A stretch of 64,000 bases of DNA from Azospirillaceae bacterium (GTDB lineage Bacteria; Pseudomonadota; Alphaproteobacteria; Azospirillales; Azospirillaceae), in NCBI GenBank assembly GCA_028283825.1, contig JAPWJW010000003.1, positions 434,001 to 498,000 on the forward strand, written 5' to 3'. A program made the position numbers and the translations under genes. Below the pieces are notes generated by a model, which was given only the letters and a program-made list of their open reading frames with translations, searched no databases and was not told the origin of the DNA. Positions 8,955 through 31,479 of this stretch are shown piece by piece (the stretch's first letter is position 1; each line of letters starts with the position of its first letter).

Positions 8955-10535
8955 ATGCCTGCCACCATCACCCTGTCCGATCTCAGCTGGTCCACGCCTG
9001 ACGGCCGGCCGCTTTTCTCCCATCTCTCCCTGACATTCGGGCCTGTGCGCACCGGCCTGATCGGCCGTAACGGCGCTGGCAAAAGCACGTTGCTGGCACT
9101 GATGGCCGGCAGCCTGCCACCGCAAGCGGGTGCCGTGGCGGCCACCGGCCGCCTAGGGGTGATGCGCCAGGCGATGCCGGGTGAACCCGATGCGACGGTG
9201 GCCGACCTGTTCGGTGTCACGGATGCCTTGGCCCTGTTGCGCCGGGCCGAGGCCGGCTTGGCCACGGCCGATGATTTGGCGGCGGCCGACTGGACGCTGG
9301 AGGCGCGGCTGTCGTCCGCCCTGGCGCGGTTGCGCCTGGACGTGGCGCCGGAAACGCCGCTGGCGGCGCTATCGGGCGGACAGCGGACGCGCGCCGCCCT
9401 GGCGGCCCTGCTGTTCGCGGAACCTGACTTCCTGTTGCTGGACGAACCCACCAACAATCTGGACCGCGCGGGCCGCCAGGCGGTGCTGGACGTGCTGGCC
9501 GGCTGGACGGGGGGTGCTGTCATCGCCAGCCATGACCGTGAACTGCTGGGGGCGGTGGACGCCATCGTGGAACTGACCACGCTGGGCGCCACGGTCTATG
9601 GCGGGAACTGGGCCCACTATCGCGAGCGCCGGGCGCTGGATTTGGCCGCAGCACAGCATGACCTGGCCGAGGCTGAAAAGCGGGTGGCCGACGCGGCGCG
9701 CGATGCCCAGGAATCCTTGGAACGCCAGGCTCGCCGCGACGCTGCCGGTCGCCGCCATGGGGCCGCGGGCGGTATGCCGCGCATCCTGCTGGGTCGGCGG
9801 CAGGAGCAGGGGGAGCGTACCGGCGGCGCCAACGCCCGCCTGGCCGACGACCGCCGGACGCAGGCGGCCGAAACCGTGACGGCAGCGCGGGCGCGGGTGG
9901 AGGTCTTGGCACCGTTGTCCATCACCCTGGCGCCCACCGGCCTGCCGCCGCACAAGACCGTGCTGCGGCTGGAGGGTGTGACGGCGGGGCATGAACCGGG
10001 CCGCCCCGTCATCCGTGATTTCTCGCTGAACATGACCGGGCCGGAACGCATCGCCGTCACCGGCCCCAACGGTGCCGGCAAGTCCACGCTGCTGGCGCTG
10101 GTCACCGGCGGCCTGGCCCCCTGGGCCGGCCAGGTGCGCCTGCTGGCGCCGCATGTGCTGCTGGACCAGCAGGCGGCGTTGCTGGAAGCAGGCGCCACCA
10201 TCCGTGACAACTTCCGCCGCCTGAATCCGGCGGAGGATGAGAACACCTGCCGTGCCGCGCTGGCCCGCTTCCGGTTTCGCGCCGACGCCGGGCTACGAAC
10301 GGTTGCCGGCCTCAGCGGTGGTGAGCGCGTGCGTGCCGGTCTGGCCTGTGTGCTGGGTGGCAGGGCGACGCCGCCCCTGCTGATCCTGGATGAGCCCACC
10401 AACCATTTGGACATCGCCGCCATCGAGGTGATGGAGGCGGCCTTGCGCGCCTATGACGGCGCGCTGCTGGTGGTCAGCCACGACGATGCCTTCCTGGAGG
10501 CCATCGGCATCACCCGGCGGGTGGCGTTGGGGTAA
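8955..10535 (+). CDS. ABC-F family ATPase (translation-associated)
   Basis: 526 residues from ATG 8955 (MPATITLSDLSW). Two ATP-binding cassettes without membrane segments: Walker A GRNGAGKST at 37-45, signature LSGGQRTRAALA, Walker B FLLLDEPTNNLD; then a charged linker (EAEKRVADAARDAQ, ERQARRDAAGRR), Walker A GPNGAGKST, signature LSGGERVRAGLA and Walker B LLILDEPTNHLD. ABC-F proteins act at the ribosomal E site, in translation quality control or antibiotic protection; which applies here is not visible. Earlier in-frame starts (from 8826) lack ABC-F similarity. Confidence 0.9.
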   Translation: MPATITLSDLSWSTPDGRPLFSHLSLTFGPVRTGLIGRNGAGKSTLLALMAGSLPPQAGAVAATGRLGVMRQAMPGEPDATVADLFGVTDALALLRRAEAGLATADDLAAADWTLEARLSSALARLRLDVAPETPLAALSGGQRTRAALAALLFAEPDFLLLDEPTNNLDRAGRQAVLDVLAGWTGGAVIASHDRELLGAVDAIVELTTLGATVYGGNWAHYRERRALDLAAAQHDLAEAEKRVADAARDAQESLERQARRDAAGRRHGAAGGMPRILLGRRQEQGERTGGANARLADDRRTQAAETVTAARARVEVLAPLSITLAPTGLPPHKTVLRLEGVTAGHEPGRPVIRDFSLNMTGPERIAVTGPNGAGKSTLLALVTGGLAPWAGQVRLLAPHVLLDQQAALLEAGATIRDNFRRLNPAEDENTCRAALARFRFRADAGLRTVAGLSGGERVRAGLACVLGGRATPPLLILDEPTNHLDIAAIEVMEAALRAYDGALLVVSHDDAFLEAIGITRRVALG

Positions 10536-10587
10536 GCGCGGCGGTTCGGATCAGAGGGGTGGCTGGCCGCGTGCGTCGATGTGCCGA

Positions 10588-10902
10588 TTACGGTCCGAAA
10601 TCCTCGCGGAAGCGCTCAATGCGATGCATCCGTTCATGCAAGATCGTGATGATGCCGATATCGCCGTTCGACAGCCTGCGCCAATAAACGAAGTGATGTT
10701 CATGGCGGAAGAAATAACCATCCACGCCAAAGTCGGCAGGGATGGGGCGCGATCTCACCCCATGGTCCGCGATGCGATTGAAGGCGTCGAACAGGCCGGT
10801 GATATATCGGTTCGCTTGCTCAGTTCCCCAGCGATCCCGCGTATAACGATAAACCTCGTCCAGGCGATGGCCAGCCGCCTCGTTAATGCGCACGGTTGTC
10901 AT
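10588..10902 (-). CDS. ParE/RelE-family toxin
   Basis: 104 residues with the ParE/RelE plasmid-stabilisation fold: RLDEVYRYTRDRWGTEQANRYITGL near the start, then RSRPIPADFGVDGYFFRHEHHFVYWRR and the C-terminal IGIITILHERMH. ParE-type toxins poison gyrase and RelE types cleave mRNA; the subtype cannot be fixed from sequence. It lies 5 bases downstream of its antitoxin gene, the normal order for parDE. The pair sits beside a truncated alpha/beta hydrolase gene. Confidence 0.88.
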   Translation of the reverse strand: MTTVRINEAAGHRLDEVYRYTRDRWGTEQANRYITGLFDAFNRIADHGVRSRPIPADFGVDGYFFRHEHHFVYWRRLSNGDIGIITILHERMHRIERFREDFGP

Positions 10903-10907
10903 GCGCC

Positions 10908-11162
10908 TTAACCCCGATTGCGTCTGATGATCTCGTCTGCGGCCAGGGGATGGTAAGAGGACTCAGGCGCCTGGAAGGCATGCTGGAGTTCCGCTTTCAG
11001 TCGGTCAAACGTTTCCCGCTCCACCCGCTCCTTGTCTCGGCGGATGAGGTCGCGAATGTACTCGCTGATATTTTCGTACGCGCCGTCTTCACCCGTGTTG
11101 GTCGCGACGAAGTCGCTCAACACGCCGCTTAGGCGGACCGTCATTGTCGTTGTTCGGGACAT
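10908..11162 (-). CDS. ParD-like antitoxin (ribbon-helix-helix)
   Basis: 84 residues from ATG 11162 (MSRTTTMTVRLSG); an upstream in-frame start at 11180 would add six residues. The N-terminal TMTVRLSGVLSDFV and YENISEYIRDLIRRD are the strand and helices of a CopG/ParD ribbon-helix-helix DNA-binding domain, and the acidic C-terminus would cover the toxin. A CATCTT/AAGATG dyad just upstream (11185-11207) is a likely autoregulatory operator. Confidence 0.87.
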   Translation of the reverse strand: MSRTTTMTVRLSGVLSDFVATNTGEDGAYENISEYIRDLIRRDKERVERETFDRLKAELQHAFQAPESSYHPLAADEIIRRNRG

Positions 11163-11184
11163 GGGCGATTCCTGGCGCAAGAAG

Positions 11185-11207
11185 CATCTTCAATATAATC
11201 AAAGATG
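11185..11207. promoter_or_regulatory. Inverted repeat upstream of parD, probable operator
   Basis: CATCTT and AAGATG arms separated by 11 AT-rich bases, 22 bases upstream of the antitoxin ATG. This is where ParD-type antitoxins usually bind to repress their own operon. Confidence 0.5.
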
Positions 11208-11208
11208 A

Positions 11209-11346
11209 ATACGGGGCAAGTCGCTGTTCAGTACGTTGTTCCCATCCGCCCCTGTCCACCGTCTGCCCGGCGTCGGTCACTATAGTTTGGAAGATGCGCC
11301 CGACACCATCGCCGGCTTGATCGCGGATTTCCTGCGTCAGTCGTAA
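11209..11346 (+). pseudogene. 3' remnant of an alpha/beta-hydrolase gene
   Basis: The forward frame open from 11209 to the TAA at 11344-11346 encodes about 45 residues ending HRLPGVGHYSLEDAP, then DTIAGLIADFLRQS. This is the typical C-terminus of an alpha/beta-fold hydrolase, where the His of GVGHY is the catalytic histidine. There is no start codon, a stop lies immediately upstream (11206) and no 5' part exists before it, where the parDE genes now sit. The gene was therefore probably truncated by the arrival of parDE or by a deletion. It overlaps the end of the lactonase gene on the other strand by 10 bases. Confidence 0.65.
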
Positions 11347-27263: not shown

Positions 27264-28093
27264 TGCCGGACACCCCCGTAAAACTGGGGATACTGGCCGG
27301 CGGCGGTGACCTGCCGGGGCGCCTGATCGAGACTTGCCGGGCGGTGGGGCGCCCGCTGTTCGTGGTGACCCTGGACGGCCAGGGTGCTGCCGTGCCGGTC
27401 GACATCCCCCAGGCCGGATTCCGCATCGGTGCCGCCGGCGCCATCCTGGACCGCCTGCGGGCCGAAGGGGTGGGCGAGATCGTGCTGGCCGGCCGCGTGC
27501 GCCGGCCCAGTCTGGCGGAGATGCGTCCCGACTGGTTCGCCGCCAAGTTCTTCGCCCGCATCGGTGCCAAGGCGCTGGGCGATGACGGCCTGCTGCGCGC
27601 CCTGGTCACCACCCTGGAGGAAGAGGGCTTCCACGTCGTGGCGGTGCAGGATCTGGTGCAGGGCTTGCTGAGCCCGGCCGGGCCCCTGGGCGCCCTGGCG
27701 CCCGACGCCGCCGCCGAGGCCGACATCGCGCACGGTGCCGCCGTCGCCCGTACGCTAGGCCTGCTGGACGTGGGCCAGTCGGTGGTGGTGCAGCAGGGGC
27801 TGGTGCTGGGGGTCGAGGCCATTGAGGGCACCGACGCCCTGATCGAGCGCTGTGGCACCCTGCGCCGCGACGGCCCTGGCCCCATCCTGGTGAAAGTGCG
27901 CAAGCCGCAGCAGGATATCCGCCTGGATTTGCCCACCATCGGCGTTACTACGGTGGAACGTGCCGCCGCCCACGGCTTCCGCGGCATCGCGGTGGAGGCG
28001 GGCGGCACCCTGACCCTGGGCCGGGACCAGGTGGCCAAGGCGGCTGATGCCGCCGGCCTCTTCGTCACCGGCATCGTTACGGAGACGGTATGA
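27263..28093 (+). CDS. lpxI: UDP-2,3-diacylglucosamine pyrophosphatase LpxI
   Basis: 276 residues from ATG 27263, overlapping lpxA. It is the DUF1009 family, the alphaproteobacterial replacement for LpxH: LGILAGGGDLPGRLIE at the N-terminus, FRIGAAGAILDRLRAEGV, GDDGLLRALVTTLEEEGF, QSVVVQQGLVLGVEAIEGTD and KVRKPQQDIRLDLPTIGV in the C-terminal domain. It yields lipid X plus UMP. Its stop overlaps the lpxB ATG, so lpxA-lpxI-lpxB are translationally coupled. Confidence 0.95.
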   Translation: MPDTPVKLGILAGGGDLPGRLIETCRAVGRPLFVVTLDGQGAAVPVDIPQAGFRIGAAGAILDRLRAEGVGEIVLAGRVRRPSLAEMRPDWFAAKFFARIGAKALGDDGLLRALVTTLEEEGFHVVAVQDLVQGLLSPAGPLGALAPDAAAEADIAHGAAVARTLGLLDVGQSVVVQQGLVLGVEAIEGTDALIERCGTLRRDGPGPILVKVRKPQQDIRLDLPTIGVTTVERAAAHGFRGIAVEAGGTLTLGRDQVAKAADAAGLFVTGIVTETV

Positions 28094-29271
28094 ACGACGA
28101 CGTGCCGCTGGTCTTCCTGGTCGCCGGCGAACCGTCGGGCGACGTGCTGGGCGGGCGGCTGATGCTGGCCCTGAAGCAGGAAACGGCCGGCGCCATCCGC
28201 TTCGCCGGTGTGGGCGGGGAACGCATGAAGGCCCAGGGCCTGAAAAGCCTGTTTCCCATGGAGGAACTGGCCCTGTTCGGCCTGGCCGAACTGCTGCCCA
28301 AGCTGCCCAGTCTGCTGCGCCGCATGAAGGAGACGGAAGAGGCCATCCTGGAGATGAAGCCGGCCGCCGTCGTCACCATCGACGCGCCGGACTTCTGCTT
28401 CCGCGTGGCGCGCAAGGTGAAGAAGGCCGACCCCAGCATCCCCCTGATCCATTACGTGGCGCCCACGGTGTGGGCCTGGCGGCCGGGCCGTGCGGGCAAG
28501 ATCGCCAAGTTCCTGGACCATCTGCTGGCCCTGCTGCCGTTCGAGCCGCCTTATTTCGAGAAGGTGGGGCTGGATTGCAGCTTCGTCGGCCATCCCATCG
28601 TGGAAAGCGGCGCGGATGCTGGCGATCCCGACCGTTTCCGTGTCGAGCACAACCTGGAAAGCGACTGCCGCGTCGTGACCATCCTGCCGGGCAGCCGGCG
28701 CAGCGAGGTCACCAAGCTGCTGCCCGACTTCAAGGCCGCGCTGGAAATCCTGGCGCCGCGCCTGCCGCGCCTGGTGGCGGCCGTGCCCACGGTGCCCGCC
28801 ACCCTGGCCCTGGTGCGCGACGCCGTGAAGGACTGGCCCCTGCCGACGGTGGTGGTTGAGGGCGACCAGGCCAAGTACGACGCTTTCGCCGCCAGCGAGG
28901 CAGCCCTGGCCGCATCCGGCACCGTGGCGCTGGAACTGGCGCTGGCCCGCCTGCCGGCGGTCATCGCCTATCGCATCCACCCGCTGACCTACCGCCTGTA
29001 TCGCGGGCTGATCAAGGTGCGCTTCGTCAATCTGGTGAACATCATGCTGAACCGCATGCTGGTGCCGGAACTGCTGCAGGACGAATGCCGCCCCTCACGC
29101 CTGGCGGAGGCGCTGGGCCGCCTGCTGGACGACCCGGCCGCCCGCCAGGAGCAGATCGAAGGCGTGGCCGAGGTGGCGGCCTGGCTGGGACAGGGCGATA
29201 CCCCCCCCAGTCGGCGTGCTGCGGAAGTGGTAATGCGTGTCATCCATGCGCGCGCCCGGGAAGACGATTAG
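28090..29271 (+). CDS. lpxB: Lipid-A-disaccharide synthase
   Basis: 393 residues, ATG 28090 overlapping lpxI. GT19 fold: VFLVAGEPSGDVLGGRLM, FAGVGGERMKAQG, HYVAPTVWAWRPGRA, TILPGSRRSEVTKLLP and the sugar-nucleotide loop ASGTVALELALARLPAVIAYR. It joins lipid X to UDP-diacylglucosamine at the inner membrane. It ends the lpxD-to-lpxB run, and a weak hairpin (29284-29301) follows before the sheath gene. Confidence 0.98.
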   Translation: MNDDVPLVFLVAGEPSGDVLGGRLMLALKQETAGAIRFAGVGGERMKAQGLKSLFPMEELALFGLAELLPKLPSLLRRMKETEEAILEMKPAAVVTIDAPDFCFRVARKVKKADPSIPLIHYVAPTVWAWRPGRAGKIAKFLDHLLALLPFEPPYFEKVGLDCSFVGHPIVESGADAGDPDRFRVEHNLESDCRVVTILPGSRRSEVTKLLPDFKAALEILAPRLPRLVAAVPTVPATLALVRDAVKDWPLPTVVVEGDQAKYDAFAASEAALAASGTVALELALARLPAVIAYRIHPLTYRLYRGLIKVRFVNLVNIMLNRMLVPELLQDECRPSRLAEALGRLLDDPAARQEQIEGVAEVAAWLGQGDTPPSRRAAEVVMRVIHARAREDD

Positions 29272-29283
29272 AATACCGCAGCC

Positions 29284-29301
29284 ATCCCGGACAGTCGGGA
29301 T
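29284..29301 (+). terminator. Weak hairpin after lpxB
   Basis: ATCCCG-gacagt-CGGGAT, 6-bp stem without a T-run, between lpxB (stop 29271) and the sheath gene (29324). It may reduce but not abolish read-through. Confidence 0.35.
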
Positions 29302-29323
29302 CGGCACCTGATCGGGGGCGGGT

Positions 29324-30493
29324 ATGGCGGAAGCACTGGCGGCGTTGCCTGACGTGGCGTTCCCGGGTGTTCCGATCGCGGAGCGGGGGCCGGAACCGGT
29401 GGCGGTTCAGGGCCTGCCCAGCGGTGTTCCCGCTTTCCTGGGGCCCTTGGCGCAGGGACCAGTGGGCCGCCCCGTCCGTGTCACCAGCCTGGCTGTTTTC
29501 CTCTCCCAGTTCGGCGCCCTGACCAGCGACACCGCCCTGGCGGTGGCCCAGTTCTTCGCCCAGGGCGGTACCGCCGCCTGGGTGGTGAACCAGCTGGCCT
29601 CGGTTGACGGTCCCTCGGCGGTGGACCAGTTGATGGCTGGCCTGTCCACGCTGGACGCGGCGGAGAATTACGACCTTGTCCACCTGCCGGAACTGCGGGC
29701 CCTGGCCCCATCCGTGGGGGCGGAGGCGCTGGGCCTGGTCGCGGACCATTGTGATCGGCGGGGGCTGTTCCTGATCGCCGATTTGCCACGGGACGTGGCC
29801 GATATCCCGGCGGCCTTGCAGTGGGCGCGGGGGCTGACCGGCCCGCGCTATGCCAATGTGGCCCTCTATTTCCCCGACCTGATGGTGCCTGATCCGACGC
29901 GGCCGGAGGGGCGCCGGCGCGTTGGTCCGGGCGCCGCCGTCGCCGGCCTTTATGCCACCAACGACCGCAACGCCGGGCTTTGGCACACGCCGGCGGGCAC
30001 GGATTTTCCCTTCCCGCACAGCCTGGACCTGTCGGCCCGCCTGGGCACGTCGGACATGGCGGCGCTGACCGGGGCCGGCATCAACGCCCTGGCCGTGTTT
30101 CCCCGCTATGGCGCCGTTCCCTGGGGCGGGCGCACGCTGGCGGGTGCGGGCAGCGAATGGCGGCAGATCGCCCTGCGCCGCCTGGCGCTGCATGTGGAGA
30201 CCAGCCTGGCGCGCGGCTGGGCCTGGGCGGCGGTCGAGGCCAACGGCGCCGATCTGTGGAAGCGCCTGACGACCACCGGGACGGCGTTCCTGGAAGGGCT
30301 GCGCCAGCAGGGCGCCTTCACCGGCACGCGGCCCGACCAGGGTTATTTCCTGCGCTGCGACCTCAGCACCACCACGCAGGAGGACCGCGACCGGGGCCTG
30401 TGCCGTGCCGTGGTGGGCATCGCCCCCATCCGCCCGGCGGAGTTCCTGCTGATGACCATCACCCTGCGCACGGCCGACGCGGCGCTTGCTTAA
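29324..30493 (+). CDS. Orphan contractile phage-tail sheath protein
   Basis: 389 residues. The N-terminal half shows the sheath pattern PGVPIAERGPEPV, AFLGPLAQGPVGRPVRVTSL, FLSQFG and ALAVAQFFAQGGTAAWVV. The C-terminal domain has the conserved interlocking region INALAVFPRYGAVPWGGRTL, WRQIALRRLALHVETSL, GAFTGTRPDQGYFLRCD and GIAPIRPAEFLLMTI. Such proteins form the contractile outer tube of myophages, R-type tailocins and extracellular injection systems. No tube, baseplate, spike, terminase or ATPase gene occurs in the window, so it is isolated. It starts 52 bases after lpxB and overlaps the convergent transporter gene by 4 bases. Confidence 0.85.
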   Translation: MAEALAALPDVAFPGVPIAERGPEPVAVQGLPSGVPAFLGPLAQGPVGRPVRVTSLAVFLSQFGALTSDTALAVAQFFAQGGTAAWVVNQLASVDGPSAVDQLMAGLSTLDAAENYDLVHLPELRALAPSVGAEALGLVADHCDRRGLFLIADLPRDVADIPAALQWARGLTGPRYANVALYFPDLMVPDPTRPEGRRRVGPGAAVAGLYATNDRNAGLWHTPAGTDFPFPHSLDLSARLGTSDMAALTGAGINALAVFPRYGAVPWGGRTLAGAGSEWRQIALRRLALHVETSLARGWAWAAVEANGADLWKRLTTTGTAFLEGLRQQGAFTGTRPDQGYFLRCDLSTTTQEDRDRGLCRAVVGIAPIRPAEFLLMTITLRTADAALA

Positions 30494-31398
30494 CGCGCGT
30501 AGCGCTTCGTGCCGGCCACGCACAGCAATACCAGGGCGGCGGTGCCCAGCAGCGACATGCCCACGGGCTCGCCCAGCAGGATGGCCGCCAGGCCGAAGCT
30601 GAAGAAGGGCTGCAGCAACTGGACCTGCCCCACCGCCGCCGTGCCGCCCAGCGACAGGGCGTGGTACCAGAAGAAAAAGCCGATCAGCATGCTGAACAGG
30701 GTGACGTAGCCCAGCGCCAGCCAGGCGGGCAGGGGCACGGCGTGCCAGTCCTGCGGCATGGTGGCGACGGCCAGCGGCCCCATCACCGGCAGGGCCAGCA
30801 CCAGCGCCCAGCAGATCACCGGCCAGCCGCCCAGGTGGCGGGACAGGCGGGCGCCCTCCGCATAGGCCAGGCCGCAGACGGTGATGGCCAGCAGCATCAG
30901 CCCGTCACCGGGCGCCAGGCCGCCCCCGCCCTGGGCCACGGCGTAGAGGGTGATGGCGGCGGCACCGGCGATGGAGAACACCCAAAACGCCGGCCGGGGC
31001 CGGTCACCGCCGCGCAGGGCGCCGAACACCGCCGTGGCGATGGGCAGCAGGCCGCTGAACACGATGGCGTGGGTCGATGGCATCCAGCGCATGGCCAATG
31101 CCGTCAGCAGGGGAAAGCCCAGCACCACGCCCAAGGCCACCACCATCAGGCCGGCCAGGTCGGCCCGGCGTGGCCGGCGCGGGCGTAGCACCGTCAGCAG
31201 GACGACGGCGCCGATGCCGGCCAGGGCGGCGCGCGCCAGGCTGACGAACACGGCGTCCAGCCCGATCAGCGCCATCTTGGTGATCGGCAGGCTGCCGCTG
31301 AAGATGATGACCGCCACCAGGCCATAGGCCAGGCCGGCCGCCGTCTGTCGGCTGGTGCGGGTCGGCAGGAGGGGGGCAGGGGCCGTCATGTCGGTCAT
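30490..31398 (-). CDS. DMT-superfamily (EamA) transporter
   Basis: 302 residues from ATG 31398 (MTDMTAPAPLL). It has ten hydrophobic segments arranged as two EamA repeats: GLAYGLVAVIIFSGSLPITKMAL opens the first, and LPAWLALGYVTLFSMLIGFFFWYHAL lies in the second. Family members export amino acids or metabolites. It is divergent from a MocR-type regulator, with an inverted repeat between them, and that regulator is its probable controller. Confidence 0.87.
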   Translation of the reverse strand: MTDMTAPAPLLPTRTSRQTAAGLAYGLVAVIIFSGSLPITKMALIGLDAVFVSLARAALAGIGAVVLLTVLRPRRPRRADLAGLMVVALGVVLGFPLLTALAMRWMPSTHAIVFSGLLPIATAVFGALRGGDRPRPAFWVFSIAGAAAITLYAVAQGGGGLAPGDGLMLLAITVCGLAYAEGARLSRHLGGWPVICWALVLALPVMGPLAVATMPQDWHAVPLPAWLALGYVTLFSMLIGFFFWYHALSLGGTAAVGQVQLLQPFFSFGLAAILLGEPVGMSLLGTAALVLLCVAGTKRYAR

Positions 31399-31479
31399 TT
31401 GGGGAAGGCGTCCGTCGTCATCATCTGGGCGGCCCCCATGCTGGGGCGGGGTGAGGCGGATCACAAGGTATGGTACAGT

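Follow-up and report, generated by a model that had tools for sequence, protein, structure and literature searches.

A gene for a contractile sheath protein of 389 amino acids (aa), P0001, lies by itself between lpxB and an EamA-type transporter gene in a 64,000-nt stretch of an Azospirillaceae bacterium genome (contig JAPWJW010000003.1, positions 434,001 to 498,000). This whole stretch is called the window, and all coordinates of the locus are positions in it. The sheath and EamA genes converge, and their stop codons overlap. The features of the locus are the following, eCIS standing for extracellular contractile injection system:

29324..30493, plus strand: solitary sheath gene, 389 aa, ATG start, TAA stop
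29348..29422, plus strand: N-terminal arm, residues 9-33, from comparison with 16 cluster sheaths
29621..29626, plus strand: codons 100-101, site of a missing 122-column block, from alignment with the nearest eCIS sheaths
30434..30490, plus strand: C-terminal arm, residues 371-389, which keeps PAEF
29272..29323, plus strand: left flank from the lpxB stop to the sheath start, containing the hairpin 29284-29301
28090..29271, plus strand: lpxB, left neighbour, context only
30490..31464, minus strand: EamA-type transporter, right neighbour, context only

P0001 matches the profile of the sheath family PF17482 with 34.8 bits, above the cut-off of 26.9, and phrog_23 (PHROG 23) with an E value of 4e-37; its scores against PF04984 and PF22671 are under the cut-offs of these families. 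The predicted structure is a confident, near-full-length sheath fold. In the C-terminal arm a strand is predicted at residues 375-382, and the N-terminal arm has no predicted strand and low confidence, with a predicted local distance difference test score (pLDDT) below 50 at residues 8-17, in a model made without an eCIS-sheath control. P0001 is thus firmly placed as a complete sheath core of eCIS type. One-domain sheaths of this size have already been described (PMC9230969).

The perfect 18-base hairpin at 29284-29301, between lpxB and the sheath gene, was not seen in the lpxB-EamA intergenic stretches of the congeners. A regulatory hairpin was rejected, the folding being no better than that of shuffled sequences (z 0.03). 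There is no terminator-like match.

Absence of partner genes

Nine hidden Markov models were built by us from known clusters (sheath, tube, gp25, gpV, gpJ, ATPase, DUF4255 and two others); they rest on few seeds, and divergent parts can escape them. In the window these profiles detected the P0001 sheath and no other injection-system part. None matched in six 20 kb stretches, which cover 60 kb beyond the window on each side, and a tail or eCIS cluster just beyond it was rejected on these scans. A sheath gene clustered with tube and baseplate genes, as in an eCIS, is therefore not what this locus holds. The first-pass annotation had described an orphan sheath gene behind lpxB, and this is confirmed; a complete tail cluster just outside the window, which it had named as grounds for refutation, was not found in the stretches scanned. 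All ten neighbouring genes scanned match non-phage Pfam families. Tail parts were not found near the sheath gene, in a search that did not extend to terminase, portal, tape measure or integrase genes. Of simple prophage debris, which the first-pass annotation had named as a refuting outcome, one sign is present, the absence of the gene from close relatives, but no tail part accompanies it.

The only other sheath of the host genome (7.16 Mb, 5 contigs) lies at C5:234990, as part of an eCIS cluster that also has two tube genes and CIS (contractile injection system) tube, gpV and gp25 domains. This resident eCIS (L003, C5:224000-243900) has one sheath of 545-551 aa and a 1417 aa protein without a Pfam match; the nine profiles add gpJ-like frames, and no ATPase match was detected within the 20 kb read. 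Genome-wide, the tube family PF06841 has two matches, both inside this cluster, and the gp25 family PF04965 also has two, one in the cluster and one at C5:564549, which we take for tssE of type VI secretion. Unpaired tube or baseplate genes elsewhere in the genome, as expected of a dispersed eCIS, were not found, the surroundings of the match at C5:564549 not having been read. The earlier proposal of a dispersed injection system finds no support here, since the only PF06841 matches lie in an eCIS with its own sheath of another type, and since three other genomes with solitary sheaths (G004, G491 and G493) have no PF06841 match at all.

P0001 and the resident sheath are 33% identical over residues 204-382 only and stand on separate tree branches, so P0001 is not a duplicate of it. 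P0001 could instead be a helper of the resident eCIS, an extra sheath subunit supplied from elsewhere and comparable to those of multi-paralogue systems. The cluster has one sheath gene, and solved eCIS entries list 2-3 sheath paralogues (Afp2-4, Pvc2-4). However, the partial likeness to the resident sheath, the different branch and the solitary sheaths of the three genomes without any tube match make such a helper very improbable.

Acquisition of the gene

In all six congeners lpxB is followed directly by the convergent EamA gene, with no sheath gene between them and with stop codons spaced by 3, 31, 40, 5, 38 and 1 bp (lpxB of G001 is truncated by a contig end). In the window genome the separation is 1.2 kb. 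The gene is present in one of seven genomes of the genus; sheaths of the congeners are at most 32% identical to P0001, and G001 and G003 have no match. Among 82 genomes of the family the best matches are 39% (residues 106-383) and 42% (residues 169-380) identical, both from another genus. Because the site is empty in all six congeners, the insertion looks recent and is most simply explained as the gain of a single gene. The same empty sites, together with the lack of any match above 42% identity in the family, led us to reject an ancient gene lost in the congeners. The ancient remnant proposed in the first-pass annotation is disfavoured on these grounds, and a recent relic is possible.

Scans with six exact 8-residue patterns of P0001, which reach close relatives only, were negative both for 84,980 species genomes and for viral contigs, and pattern scans with the G775 and G512 proteins, introduced below, brought up no relative either. 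Plasmid searches with the G624 and G775 proteins returned matches that, among those listed, were all below 60% identity. The codon fit of the sheath gene is at the 23rd percentile among 122 local open reading frames, which indicates a donor of similar make-up or a gene that has had time to adapt.

Relationship to other short sheaths

Four large, overlapping sheath surveys of 59, 82, 398 and 385 genomes were made with P0001; in two of them, including the 385-genome survey of the class, only the four best first-look candidates per genome were scored. In the class survey the best scores to P0001, its own apart, were 195.6 bits for G775 and 194.4 for G512, both solitary, followed by 191.7 for G682 and 190.5 for G545, whose sheath lies inside a cluster. 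A careful 33-row tree joins P0001 with G682 and three genes of the genus g259 (support 89/91), in a branch that otherwise consists mostly of larger cluster sheaths, and a quick tree adds G775 to the P0001 group. Constraining six rows (P0001, G775, G512, G624, G712 and G682) to one group was not rejected by the approximately unbiased test (p-AU 0.447). A group of P0001 with the short sheaths of Paracoccus and Methylocapsa was rejected (p-AU 0.0069).

Two further characters unite the six proteins. All six lack, at the same point, a block of 122 alignment columns that at least 8 of the 11 nearest eCIS sheaths possess. Where at least 15 of 16 cluster sheaths have a conserved C-terminal Gln, five of the six, including P0001, have Leu and one has Ile. 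These changes in the alignments speak for common descent, or common loss, of the six. The g259 sheaths (G512, G624, G712, G821, G822) and those of G775 and G682 are about 376-390 aa long, like P0001 (the start in G682 is unsure); G512, G624, G712, G775 and G682 share both its missing block and its lost Gln and are its nearest relatives in the trees. These solitary, stripped-down sheaths appear to form a small alphaproteobacterial group that includes P0001. The g259 gene is found at one locus in five species under purifying selection, whereas P0001 is found in one species and is more diverged.

Several observations weigh against this grouping. In the careful tree G775 falls outside the supported part of the group. 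The end branch of P0001 is one of the two longest, with 2.4-2.6 changes per site, and its exact place is unsure because of this length; support is moderate, and the grouping could be long-branch attraction. Solitude with 8 kb or more on both sides is seen for G512, G624 and G775. It is less sure for G682 and G712 because their flanks are short, below 8 kb on at least one side: the G682 gene is 2.1 kb from a contig end, and the G712 contig is 10.6 kb long. Flanks of G821 and G822 are only about 1.5 kb, and both genomes have a second sheath elsewhere.

P0001 also differs from the known systems. In Streptomyces coelicolor the contractile injection system (PDB 9gts, 8bl4, 8bky) has a longer sheath, of 534-539 aa, which the PDB titles place in one particle together with tube, baseplate and cap, whereas P0001 has no local partner. 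Nearer in length are the short eCIS sheaths of a Paracoccus plasmid (NZ_CP067227.1, 384 aa) and a Rhodovulum plasmid (NZ_CP015419.1, about 390 aa), which are 33% and 29% identical to P0001 over 97-98% of its length. Unlike P0001, both belong to clusters in which tail, baseplate V, gp25 and gpJ genes are annotated. The short form probably arose separately in these sheaths, as the grouping of P0001 with Paracoccus and Methylocapsa was rejected.

Solitary sheaths in other genomes

Fifty-nine sheath loci were read, mostly in stretches of 20 kb, and second sheaths within clusters were not counted as loci. Places with weak or fragmentary matches were dropped (E about 1e-7 to 1e-3: G049 x3, G016:C2, G054, G017, G069, G101:C12, G276; likewise G197, G496, G196, G115, G540 x2, G619, G783, G798, G682:C236 and the fragment G216). 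The count of solitary genes was limited to the 45 loci with at least 8 kb on both sides. Twelve of these carry the sheath alone, with none of eight other families, four carry it with one family and 29 with three or more. The twelve include orthologous loci (three in congeners, two of g118 and two of g259) and represent about eight lineages: the window; G002/G004/G006; G168; G135; G491/G493; G775; G512/G624; and G621. The remaining 14 stretches, with less than 8 kb on one side, comprise four with the sheath only, two with sheath and tube, one with the sheath and two families, and seven clusters. As a control, 80 named loci nearest the Paracoccus sheath were used; of the 45 with 8 kb on both sides, one has the sheath only (L205, Phenylobacterium). 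Labelling 12 of the rows in a quick 66-row tree as solitary requires eight changes of the label, at least seven of them forced by well-supported branches, and solitude therefore arose, or was lost, many times. G135, G168, G002 and G006 have one PF06841 match elsewhere in the genome.

A second type of solitary sheath, of about 538 aa, is present in the congeners G002, G004 and G006 (L115, L116, L112:8675-10291) and is 60-64% like the resident eCIS sheath of the window genome. It adjoins a gene that is presumably LysR-like. The ratio of nonsynonymous to synonymous substitution rates (dN/dS) is 0.28-0.33 for this sheath and 0 to 0.23 for its neighbours. A tail-tube gene that is 70% like the tube of the resident eCIS stands alone in four of the six congeners (G003, G006, G002 and G001; L256-L259, about 9840-10440) and has a dN/dS of 0.34-0.50; its flanking genes we take to be nudC-like and inositol-monophosphatase-like. 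Five congeners without a sheath-tube-gp25 cluster carry the solitary sheath, the solitary tube or both, and the cluster-bearing G000 and G005 carry neither. Reduced combinations were found as well: a sheath and tube pair unaccompanied by further injection parts over about 20 kb (L103 and L104, about 9560-11340, of G402 and G428, genomes with no further PF06841 match), a sheath with an ATPase only (L109, G241, which has no PF06841 match genome-wide) and a sheath with a gpV-like gene only (L288, G463).

Selection on the sheath genes

The g259 sheath gene was found in five of the seven species searched (10 genomes in the family); completeness of the two genomes without it is 78% and 98%. In all five it adjoins one and the same gene, presumably dehydrogenase-like. 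Close pairs gave dN/dS values of 0.155, 0.163 and 0.172 at synonymous distances (dS) of 0.3-0.7. Genes adjoining the sheath gave 0.04-0.26, or 0.06-0.21 for the close-pair species. Between G491 and G493 the sheath has a dN/dS of 0.19 on 28 changes, and four neighbours have 0-0.04. The solitary sheath genes compared in this way are constrained, though less than most of their neighbours, and the g259 sheath is maintained and is not debris. The domesticated sheath suggested in the first-pass annotation is therefore supported at the level of the family, through related sheaths of another genus; the window copy is not part of that evidence. We regard it as moderately well supported that sheaths of the P0001 group are kept for a stand-alone role.

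Other values point away from such a role. Distant g259 pairs gave a dN/dS of 0.26-0.32 and 0.47 at dS 0.9-1.1, and one in-frame TGA was marked by the search in the G821 match, where a 376-residue frame is open. P0001 retains 46 of 61 core positions, compared with 53-59 in the rest of the group, and this lowest number together with its long branch also fits decay.

Decay after transfer is the main and a strong rival explanation for the window copy: a foreign eCIS sheath gene would have landed harmlessly between converging genes and would now be drifting without function, a passenger on its way out. We consider this a real possibility, if somewhat below an even one. The gene is present in one of seven genomes of the genus, has lost more conserved positions than any other member of its group, on a very long branch, and has a codon fit in the lower quartile. 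No promoter-like match was detected in 28900-30900, which says little, as one promoter type was covered and 0.1 matches are expected by chance. The gene has 72% GC and its antisense frame is open for 427 aa, so that an open frame is weak evidence of selection. Nevertheless, the frame is fully open, and P0001 keeps 49 of 64 positions (77%) that are invariant in seven other short sheaths, each of which keeps 88-100% when compared in the same way. The confident fold predicted over nearly the full length and the purifying selection on the relatives tested also argue against a mere passenger.

Handshake arms and possible function

Neighbouring subunits of a known sheath join in a handshake, to which one contributes its N-terminus and the other its C-terminus, and the subunit below completes it (PMC10457771). 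The handshake is also described in PMC8894135, where a gp25-like protein and a cap adaptor mimic it and so start or end the sheath. P0001 keeps five of the eight N-arm positions conserved in 16 cluster sheaths, with Pro at the near-invariant Tyr of PGVY. The other group proteins keep one (G775), eight (G512), three (G624), two (G712) and eight (G682), so that most of the N-terminal motif is lost in three of the six.

Arm loss is no rule for solitary sheaths, as G512 and G682 retain the full N-arm motif and solitary sheaths of other branches keep both arms, which tells against a role based on altered arms. As a mark of all solitary sheaths it was rejected: the N-arm pattern is present in 13 of 18 tube-less sheaths, compared with 177 of 199 sheaths that have a tube no more than 3 kb away, and the C-arm stretch contains a Gln in 9 of 18 and 149 of 199, respectively. 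The script used for these counts misses the N-arm of G682 (it reads no further than residue 200 of an open stretch of 811 codons) and the C motif of G712, and credits G775 with a Gln from a neighbouring residue, the aligned position being Leu.

With altered handshake arms and no unpaired tube found to match it, P0001 probably builds no tail of its own. It would fold as a soluble subunit and could do no more than attach to the end of a sheath formed in the same cell by a contractile phage, a tailocin or an eCIS. A subunit able to dock but unable to extend the chain would serve as a cap, and P0001 might in this way stop or spoil sheath growth, as one-sided handshake mimics do. The gp25-like starter and the cap adaptor Alg16B likewise offer one side of the handshake (PMC8894135), and their likeness to P0001 is a proposed analogy; unlike P0001, they are other proteins of a complete particle. 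That P0001 caps or poisons contractile sheaths is unlikely when taken as a claim of its own. A search of PADLOC-DB 2.0.0, a further point against a defensive role, yielded no family for P0001 (E up to 1) and one weak match (E 0.017) for the G775 protein.

Alternatively, the sheath core may now serve as a scaffold in the cytosol or on the membrane side, a task that has nothing to do with injection. The solitary genes have ordinary chromosomal genes around them, to judge by the presumed identities of these neighbours, and the N-terminus of the g259 proteins is cationic (+4 with a hydrophobic moment of 0.54 in the form of G512/G624, +3 and 0.21 in G821). P0001, however, has no cationic stretch and a net charge of -2 there, and for it such a scaffold is a long shot. 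In the g259 sheaths (L317, L319, L320, L328) a conserved cationic stretch, MALKQVVRWMRSMTR, stands before or in place of the N-arm and is possibly a membrane-binding helix.

The reading that we tentatively prefer, at a little under even chances, is that P0001 is an eCIS-type sheath core gained as a single gene, that it belongs to a solitary and stripped-down group, and that it builds no tail of its own and can at most cap or spoil sheaths made by other systems in the cell. The wider idea that solitary sheath cores move as single genes and are kept for spoiling the contractile tails of phages, tailocins or rival systems in the cell, as a kind of anti-sheath, is rather improbable.

Significance

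Sheath proteins as such are well known, and contractile sheaths are regarded as parts that are meaningful only around a tube. No account of an orphan, lone or solitary sheath was found by title and abstract start in the literature covered, which is partial and has most subscription papers outside it, nor was any case of orphan or incomplete eCIS parts found among the matches listed there. A group of solitary, stripped sheaths under selection seems to be undescribed within that partial coverage. If a sheath core without the outer block of its kin does travel alone, and if purifying selection keeps it at one and the same locus within a genus, the sheath fold has a second life. Should its role be the blocking of contractile tails, it would be a new kind of defence protein; should it be scaffolding, it would be a rare case of a phage part turned into a cell part. 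The sleeve protein may live without the needle, and this question can be tested with a defined set of proteins.
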